Below, one piece after another: positions 11,950 to 13,446 of a stretch of 32,862 nt of DNA. The position numbers and the translations under genes are program-made. The stretch is from an uncultured Lachnospiraceae bacterium (GTDB taxonomy: Bacteria > Bacillota > Clostridia > Lachnospirales > Lachnospiraceae). Each line of letters opens with the position of its first letter. Position 1 is the first letter of the stretch. The stretch spans positions 1-32,862 of the forward strand of contig CAJOKX010000011.1 in NCBI GenBank assembly GCA_905235415.1, read 5' to 3'. The notes under the pieces are model-generated. The model was not told the origin of the DNA. It was given only the letters and a program-made list of their open reading frames with translations, and ran no database searches.

Positions 11950-13446
11950 ATGCGTACATTTTCCCGTTCCCTGTTGTCTTCAACCGTCGTTTCCAGACGC
12001 AAAGCGCTGAACCTTACGCAGGCGTCTCTTGCGCAGATGACCGGTATCAGCCGGAGCGTTCTTTCGAATCTGGAGAACGGCACCTATACGCCTTCGATCG
12101 AACAGCTCGAGTCCCTCGCAGACGCTCTGCAGTTTGACCCTTCGGATCTGTTTGCCGATTCTTCCAGGAAAGCGCTTCCGGTCGAGGGTTCGTACAAGAT
12201 CGCCGTTGCAGGGACCGGATACGTCGGCCTGTCGCTGGCGGTTCTTCTTTCGCAGCACAACGAGGTGACTGCGGTCGATATCGTTCCCGAAAAGGTCGAG
12301 AAGCTTAACAACTACATTTCACCGATCCAGGATGAGTATATAGAGCGGTATCTGGACGAAGCCAGGTCCGGAAAACGCACCCTGCATCTTCACGCCACCA
12401 CAGACGGTGCGTCCGCATATGCCGACGCGGACTATGTGATCGTCGCGGCGCCGACCAATTATGATCCGAAAACCAATTACTTCGACTGCTCCGCAGTGGA
12501 GTCCGTGATCTCGCTGGTGCTCGAGAGCACTTCACACCGGGATACGCCTCCGGCCATCGTGATCAAGTCAACGGTTCCGGTCGGCTTTACAGAGCAGGTG
12601 CGCAGACGTTTCAACACCAGAAACATCCTGTTCAGCCCGGAGTTCCTGCGGGAATCCAAAGCGCTCTATGACAATCTGTATCCCAGCCGCATCATCGTCG
12701 GCTGTGATGAAGAGTCCGAGCCGAAGGCCCGCACGTTTGCCGCGCTTCTGCAGCAGGGCGCGCTGAAAGAATCCATCGATACGCTGTTCATGGGCTTTAC
12801 CGAAGCGGAGGCCACCAAGCTGTTCGTCAACACCTATCTTGCGCTTCGTGTCAGTTATTTTAATGAGCTGGATACGTATGCAGAGGTAAAAGGCCTGGAC
12901 ACCTCTTCGATTATCAAAGGGGTCTGCCTTGATCCGAGAGTCGGCGATTATTACAACAATCCGTCCTTCGGATACGGCGGCTACTGCCTGCCCAAGGATA
13001 CCAAGCAGCTTCTGGCCAACTATCGGGACGTCCCGGAGAATCTGATCCAGGCCATCGTCGACAGCAACCGGACCCGGAAAGACTTTATCGCGGACCGCGT
13101 TCTGCAGAAGGCGGAATACTACAGCTACTCCGACTACAATTATGAACAGACCCGGGAGAAGGAAGCCGTCGTCGGCGTATACCGCCTGACGATGAAGTCC
13201 AATTCCGACAACTTCAGGCAGTCCTCCATCCAGGGCGTCATGAAGCGCATCAAGGCGAAAGGCGCCACCGTGGTGATCTATGAGCCGACGCTTCAGGACG
13301 GATCGACGTTCTTCGGAAGCAAGGTTGTAAACGATCTGGACGCCTTCAAGCGTATGTGCGGATGCATTCTGGCAAACCGCTATGATTCTGTTCTGGATGA
13401 TGTGAGCGAAAAAGTGTATACCAGAGACCTGTACAGAAGGGACTGA
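11950..13446 (+). CDS. XRE-type HTH fused to UDP-glucose 6-dehydrogenase (HasB-like)
   Basis: Residues about 12-66 of this 498-residue protein form an XRE/HTH_3 DNA-binding domain (ALNLTQASLAQMTGISRSVLSNLENGT region). Residues about 82-495 are a complete nucleotide-sugar dehydrogenase: NAD-binding VAGTGYVGL at 86-94, IKSTVPVGF at 205-213, SPEFLRES at 229-236, K290 and N294, and the catalytic cysteine C346 in GGYCLPKD. The enzyme part resembles HasB/Cps3D and should oxidise UDP-glucose to UDP-glucuronate with two NAD+. All key residues are present, so it is probably active. The start follows GAGGAGG by eight bases. It is transcribed alone between two oppositely oriented polymer operons. The fusion suggests a regulator whose DNA binding responds to UDP-glucose, NAD or product; this is inference. 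Confidence 0.92.
   Translation: MRTFSRSLLSSTVVSRRKALNLTQASLAQMTGISRSVLSNLENGTYTPSIEQLESLADALQFDPSDLFADSSRKALPVEGSYKIAVAGTGYVGLSLAVLLSQHNEVTAVDIVPEKVEKLNNYISPIQDEYIERYLDEARSGKRTLHLHATTDGASAYADADYVIVAAPTNYDPKTNYFDCSAVESVISLVLESTSHRDTPPAIVIKSTVPVGFTEQVRRRFNTRNILFSPEFLRESKALYDNLYPSRIIVGCDEESEPKARTFAALLQQGALKESIDTLFMGFTEAEATKLFVNTYLALRVSYFNELDTYAEVKGLDTSSIIKGVCLDPRVGDYYNNPSFGYGGYCLPKDTKQLLANYRDVPENLIQAIVDSNRTRKDFIADRVLQKAEYYSYSDYNYEQTREKEAVVGVYRLTMKSNSDNFRQSSIQGVMKRIKAKGATVVIYEPTLQDGSTFFGSKVVNDLDAFKRMCGCILANRYDSVLDDVSEKVYTRDLYRRD

Follow-up and report, generated by a model that had tools for sequence, protein, structure and literature searches.

The gene at positions 11950-13446 of a 32,862-nucleotide stretch of DNA from an uncultured Lachnospiraceae bacterium (contig CAJOKX010000011.1 of assembly GCA_905235415.1; the whole stretch is called the window below) encodes an XRE-type helix-turn-helix (HTH) joined to a UDP-glucose dehydrogenase, and the predicted binding sites of this fusion protein are two 17-bp palindromes flanking its likely promoter, through which it quite probably represses its own transcription. 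The first-pass annotation of this DNA had proposed that the protein sets its own expression and perhaps that of flanking polymer operons, and what is added here is the likely operator of the fusion family. Judged from the sequence comparisons, self-regulation is strongly supported, since the palindromes track the HTH, sit around the likely promoter and both fall within the 11700-11950 fragment that had been put forward for binding; control of the flanking polymer operons found no support, there being no consistent excess of sites across genomes and no further exact site in the window. The features in question are as follows.

11747..11763 (no strand): distal operator-like palindrome TGTCGCCGTCAGCGACA, an exact TGTCG-N7-CGACA whose arms reach one base further on each side (ATGTCGC/GCGACAT)
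11824..11829 (+): predicted -35 hexamer TTGACA, part of the highest-scoring sigma-70-type match to my own weight matrix within 300 bp upstream of the gene
11847..11852 (+): predicted -10 hexamer TATGAA, after a 17-bp spacer and with TGC ahead of it (extended -10-like); predicted start near 11859
11902..11918 (no strand): proximal operator-like palindrome TGTCGTCATTCACGACA, an exact TGTCG-N7-CGACA beginning at about +43 from the predicted transcription start
11936..11941 (+): ribosome-binding site AGGAGG, 8 bases ahead of the ATG, read from the sequence
11950..13446 (+): HTH-UDP-glucose dehydrogenase fusion gene, a single open reading frame (ORF) of 498 amino acids with an ATG start, stop included
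11995..12150 (+): XRE-type HTH domain, residues 16-67 (Pfam HTH_3, 54.9 bits), with the recognition helix at about residues 34-42, including R35
12151..12192 (+): poorly conserved linker, residues 68-81, mean majority-residue frequency 0.48
12193..13443 (+): UDP-glucose dehydrogenase, residues 82-498, with catalytic-site K290, N294 and C346, from Pfam, NCBIfam and the 1dli alignment

The exact TGTCG-N7-CGACA arrangement occurs twice in the 32.9-kb window, both times just upstream of the fusion gene (0.06 expected), and three times in the 2.54-Mb genome, two of them at the fusion gene; the third (C73:3877) lies inside ORF 905-2155 of L144, which by eye encodes the substrate-binding protein of a transporter, and is not beside a polymer gene. 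A search for palindromes of any kind upstream of fused relatives found the same 17-bp layout recurring (TGTTGCTGACAGCAACA, TGTTATTTTTTATAACA, TGTCATTTAAAATGACA), and a consensus, TGTYRY-N5-RYRACA, was drawn from 51 discovery loci and then tested on 30 unused fused loci, over 300 bp upstream. It is matched exactly at 26/51 discovery loci and with at most one mismatch at 39/51 (shuffle means 0.09 and 1.96), and at 8/30 and 24/30 of the hold-out loci, respectively (shuffle means 0.03 and 0.92, maxima 1 and 4, in 100 shuffles), giving 63 of the 81 fused loci at the looser threshold, at which the motif is found upstream of 0/58 unfused dehydrogenase genes and then 0/8 more (0/66). No hidden N-terminal HTH was detected in the unfused proteins (best E-value 0.79 among L036 and 59 others), and the other seven of the further unfused genes have at most 39 residues ahead of the dehydrogenase match. 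Across the same loci the density of exact sites is 2.83 per kb within 300 bp upstream of the genes versus 0.013 per kb elsewhere, and 11747-11763 and 11902-11918 are the only exact matches to the degenerate motif in the window. At one mismatch or fewer the window holds 7 sites against 2.2 expected; the five further one-mismatch sites, at 9385, 13669, 18109, 19492 and 24838, are not linked to a promoter here.

These counts exclude L112 (cut at the contig start), the window's further copies (L142, L143 and L157) and 24 near-duplicates. Among 59 unfused entries L131 is too short upstream, which leaves 58, and the second gene of L095 as well as L134 are incomplete genes lying at the end of a contig. 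Genes missed by the pattern for the nicotinamide adenine dinucleotide (NAD) loop were checked apart, namely unfused L032, L034, L036, L046, L048, L055, L059 and L060, and fused L191, which has one site with one mismatch and stands outside the 81.

In a tree of 135 dehydrogenase domains, from which fragments were left out, fused and unfused forms are interleaved, with 12 changes on the best tree and at least 6 forced by supported branches; the motif is present in 62/77 fused and 0/55 unfused rows, three rows with short upstream DNA being left out of the motif counts. Six independent fused/unfused pairs can be drawn on supported branches; on average motif and HTH change together in 4.5 of them, the motif does not differ in 1.5, and the two are opposed in none (sign test, median p 0.06, a value bounded by how few pairs there are). 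The dehydrogenase of L114 (4905 onwards) is nested among fused relatives and begins MKHLDLK where theirs begin MKHLSLK, then runs into a linker with no HTH, and the DNA upstream of it holds no site even when one mismatch is allowed. From the tree and this N-terminus I infer that L114 lost its HTH, which would make it a natural experiment in the loss of regulation.

In the window the distal site lies upstream of the predicted promoter and the proximal site at about +43, and at least two sites are found at 39/81 fused genes, with the top-scoring promoter between the outermost sites in 30 of those 39. Measured from the predicted start, the 109 site centres gather in two clusters, with 30 between -105 and -76 and 39 between +15 and +59, and a site is centred between -35 and +60 in 52/63 loci (27.7 expected); in L070, L078 and L081 the promoter is a perfect TTGACA-17-TATAAT. 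Such paired sites around a predicted sigma-70-like promoter argue for repression, perhaps by looping. I would propose that a dehydrogenase dimer pairs two HTHs and thereby reads one palindrome, because the S. pyogenes enzyme is a homodimer (PMC4794789; this and the other papers are cited here for extracts of their text), that dimers on both operators may block the promoter or loop over it, and that surplus enzyme would in this way shut the gene and hold UDP-glucuronate synthesis at a set level, in many relatives jointly with a co-directional epimerase gene.

Pfam places HTH_3 at residues 16-67 of the 498-residue protein (54.9 bits versus a cut-off of 23) and the N-terminal, central and C-terminal UDPG_MGDP_dh domains at 83-258, 285-374 and 409-485, in their usual order and each above its curated cut-off, which bears out the earlier description of an HTH ahead of a complete dehydrogenase in one ORF; the HTH span given there was about residues 12-66. 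AlphaFold2 models a five-helix HTH (helices 6-19, 24-31, 35-42, 50-60 and 64-67) with a predicted local distance difference test score mostly above 90, and the domain thus has both the score and the five-helix fold of the XRE (HTH_3) type. That the true start codon might lie after the HTH, so that the domain would never be made, had been named as one outcome that would sink the proposal; by comparison only, the evidence speaks against it, since M30 lies inside the HTH, no later methionine precedes the Rossmann motif, and HTH conservation is seen among the best 120 of 7997 scored candidate homologues, the set behind the conservation figures that follow. These best 120 of 7997 all carry HTH_3, are 74-79% identical to the window protein apart from the window's own copies, have R35 in 120/120, and show a mean majority-residue frequency of 0.76 over residues 12-67, 0.48 in the linker and 0.89 in the dehydrogenase. 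The few names that sources give among them are UDPglucose 6-dehydrogenase or nucleotide sugar dehydrogenase, and the regulatory half is therefore easily overlooked.

For the dehydrogenase half, the best NCBIfam model is PRK15057 (UDP-glucose 6-dehydrogenase), whose 545.6 bits fall below the equivalog cut-off of 757, and the subfamily model TIGR03026 is passed at 303.7 bits versus 189.8; with the PRK15057 cut-off unreached, UDP-glucose is therefore only the presumed substrate of the fusion. The best-scoring solved structures, 3phl/3pid and 1dli, which I take to be from Klebsiella and Streptococcus pyogenes, respectively, are UDP-glucose dehydrogenases and cover residues 82-498 only. Aligned to 1dli with an offset of 86, K290, N294 and C346, the residues singled out in the first-pass annotation, do correspond to Lys204, Asn208 and Cys260 of the S. 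pyogenes enzyme (chain 1dlj has Ser at the Cys position), which PMC4794789 names as substrate-stabilising or catalytic, and through this alignment the window protein has 18/18 of the residues given there as invariant, K290, N294, C346 and D350 among them. The K/N/C triad at 290/294/346 is kept in 78/78 full-length fused relatives, and catalysis is probably retained in fused proteins because these enzyme residues are conserved.

The fusion is a widespread family and not an oddity, its recurrence being far above chance. The proposed search for further proteins with HTH_3 ahead of UDPG_MGDP_dh, made here with a profile built on residues 1-112, finds it in 37/397 same-family genomes and 6/391 same-class genomes (own genome included in both), with one fused gene in the own genome and none at the profile threshold in two genomes of the same genus (G069 and G767); a phylum scan gives a match in 43/398 genomes, the match starting from residue 1 in the window itself only. 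Among the matches listed, fused loci come from Lachnospiraceae, Ruminococcus, Erysipelotrichaceae, Selenomonas, Mogibacterium and Streptococcus suis, and also from contigs binned as Coriobacteriaceae and Spirochaetales. In L065 (Clostridium polysaccharolyticum DSM 1801) the fused frame at 7001 stops after about 171 residues, and the gene looks interrupted in the record.

Several points weigh against autorepression through these sites. The consensus came from the discovery loci, which leaves the hold-out and unfused counts as the sole independent tests, and upstream of 18/81 fused genes no site is seen even with one mismatch allowed, L066, L069 and L085 with canonical recognition helices being among them; L098 and L108, both from Streptococcus suis, are likewise fused with canonical recognition helices and have no consensus operator upstream. 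The promoters are consensus predictions from my own weight matrix, and a separate consensus scan, which omits the 11824 promoter by demanding T at position 6 of the second hexamer, finds instead TTGTCA-16-TATGAT at 11596-11623 (+, 10 of 12), a promoter that would place both palindromes downstream of the start. Outermost sites lie anywhere between 32 and 174 bp apart, and phasing at the 10.5-bp helical repeat is not supported (p 0.34; p 0.003 at a period of 11.0, five periods having been tried), so that looping is not established; the AlphaFold2 dehydrogenase part is of low confidence and would not fix the placement of the HTH relative to the dimer. Finally, S39 is found in 53/63 fused loci with the motif versus 10/18 without it (Fisher p 0.02), an association that I dropped because correction for the tree removes it.

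Covariation of the recognition helix at residue 39 was accordingly rejected as a line of evidence, since the supported branches of the tree yield only 3 independent pairs and these show no direction. At residue 35 a site is present in 63/79 loci with R35 versus 0/2 without (p 0.047). Fused proteins with Gly for Ser at 39 ('MIGR'; L010, L020, L100, L101, L166, L172 and L184) often lack the consensus operator, 7/13 being without a site at one mismatch or fewer, and no alternative shared palindrome was seen upstream of this group or of the other motif-less loci. In a search for stand-alone HTH partners beside unfused dehydrogenases, a hidden Markov model of the fused HTH matched, apart from the fused genes, only L114 (2856-3149, 29 bits), L212 (4725-5117, 28 bits) and L121 (20 bits), and no general split ancestor is seen.

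Of the other explanations, one would extend autorepression and is compatible with it: UDP-glucose, NAD(H) or UDP-glucuronate in the dehydrogenase might switch the HTH on or off its operators so that transcription follows flux, as the first-pass annotation had pictured. The triad intact in every full-length fused relative suggests that these ligands would be bound, and PutA, the nearest working analogue, switches with substrate (PMC5293562), yet no sequence feature ties one domain to the other, conservation is lowest in the linker and the AlphaFold2 model is uninformative on domain docking, and I would put such ligand gating at somewhat below an even chance. More speculative still, and on balance doubtful, is the full picture of a feedback circuit in one polypeptide and one promoter, in which XRE-bearing dimers would bridge two operators across their own promoter, the loop opening or closing with active-site occupancy and so setting the supply of UDP-glucuronate for surface polymers, with HTH and operators lost or gained together across the Firmicutes.

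The remaining explanations would replace repression by the fusion. It is unlikely that the protein binds the palindromes and activates, or acts mainly as an activator via the distal site; the recurrent site near -100 is at a position usable by activators, but the other cluster lies at +15 to +59, a site overlaps the predicted -10 in L080, L087 and L023, and the promoters of fused genes score as strong unaided, with a median best score of 12.2 bits versus 8.6 upstream of unfused genes. The own genome does hold other XRE-like genes, two of them weak matches at 37% and 32% identity, and an unlinked regulator might bind the palindromes with the fusion HTH passive or aimed at a different target; this is very unlikely, however, given that none of 66 unfused dehydrogenase genes, same-family ones among them, has the motif upstream, and that wherever the members of an independent pair differ in motif, the one with the motif is the one with the HTH. 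Least probable is that the proximal palindrome is an RNA hairpin in the 5' leader (an attenuator or RNA-protein site) and not a DNA operator: a hairpin forms at the palindrome when the predicted leader is folded, bases paired in the dyad often vary in step, and with the 11596-11623 promoter both palindromes would fall in the leader, but in 30/39 multi-site loci the outer site is placed ahead of the top-scoring promoter and would not be transcribed, the outer bases TGT/ACA hardly vary and the whole predicted leader folds no better than shuffles (z 0.33).

Autorepression by the fusion also looks confined largely to its own gene. A regulon in trans was considered and rejected, since ten genomes show no consistent excess of sites: exact motif versus reversed-pattern control is 14 v 5 in the own genome (G000) and 19 v 17, 25 v 19, 11 v 18, 7 v 6, 15 v 24, 13 v 32, 19 v 14, 17 v 29 and 16 v 12 in the others, that is, above control in 6/10 and below it in 4/10, with sums of 156 v 176. 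On these counts the fusion looks mainly like a one-promoter autoregulator. Only in the own genome is an excess marked, and a small further regulon is possible there.

The UDP-glucose dehydrogenase step commits UDP-glucose to uronic acids, and the window is a surface-polymer region with glycerophosphotransferases, glycosyltransferases, an ATP-binding cassette (ABC) exporter, an acyltransferase, an epimerase and an IspD-like cytidylyltransferase. The fusion gene is flanked by a divergent ABC permease (start 11528), 219 bp from the distal palindrome, which makes an effect of that site on the permease possible, and by a convergent glycosyltransferase (13760-16168), and no co-directional gene lies close downstream of it in the window. 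In relatives, 16 of the 31 co-directional downstream genes examined encode NAD-dependent epimerases, and a guess from sequence would be UDP-glucuronate 4-epimerase; in 2/31 (L090 and L093, the latter equal to G081) the next downstream gene is an unfused dehydrogenase, which in G073 and L095 lies one gene further downstream, and divergent upstream genes are varied. This census covers 31/39 co-directional downstream and 31/46 divergent upstream genes plus the window's permease, some being cut by the locus end, and seven fused loci gave no self match in it. Beside the fusion gene, 8777-10783 (-) encodes in one 668-residue ORF an ABC exporter ATPase (Wzt/TagH-like, about residues 28-280) joined to a complete UDP-galactopyranose mutase (289-650), and 7641-8774 (-) encodes a DUF6273 protein within the polymer gene cluster. 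Just past the fusion stop, at about 13477-13565, a long imperfect inverted repeat (AGTTCGCAGGCCAGCCAACTCTG ... CAGAGGCTGGCCTGTGAACTG) was noticed by eye and may be a terminator.

The full text of open-licence PMC papers yielded, among the matches listed, no paper on an HTH fused to a UDP-glucose or nucleotide sugar dehydrogenase. Few enzymes are known to govern their own genes directly by means of a DNA-binding domain in the same chain, PutA being the best known. Trifunctional PutA of E. coli and Salmonella, an N-terminal ribbon-helix-helix joined to a proline/P5C dehydrogenase, is the autogenous put repressor (PMC6978683) and a working analogue (PMC5293562) of the fusion in having an intact enzyme and a DNA-binding domain in one chain, but it differs in carrying a ribbon-helix-helix and not an XRE HTH and in its enzyme and pathway; no membrane association is known for the fusion, and repression is shown for PutA and would only be expected of the fusion. 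The 11 Pfam families matched include no ribbon-helix-helix, proline dehydrogenase or P5C dehydrogenase, so that the fusion, though it may function in a PutA-like way, does not belong to the PutA family. BzdR, whose DNA-binding domain is XRE-type, resembles the fusion in joining a DNA-binding domain, a linker and an enzyme-derived domain. That last domain is shikimate kinase-like and has lost its activity, a loss that the authors call essential for its becoming a regulatory domain (PMC3602430), whereas the fusion keeps its catalytic residues, has no shikimate kinase-like Pfam match and matches PRK08154 (anaerobic benzoate catabolism regulator) over residues 9-73 only, at 26.5 bits versus 204. 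The S. pyogenes-type UDP-glucose dehydrogenase (1dli, 3phl) is alike over all of residues 82-498, with the 18/18 invariant residues, and differs in that the solved chains have no HTH match and the unfused relatives no operator. In the gal system operators at -60.5 and +53.5, 113 bp apart, lie on either side of the promoter and GalR loops the DNA (PMC4693257), a layout resembling the fusion's clusters near -100 and +30, although GalR is a separate protein of the GalR-LacI family and looping is shown for gal and only suggested for the fusion. Set beside PutA, the fusion appears to be another such dehydrogenase case built from different parts and common, among the matches listed, in gut and rumen Firmicutes, and its interleaved fused and unfused forms, with the operator only where the HTH is, make it testable how enzymes gain or lose a regulatory domain and whether catalysis survives.
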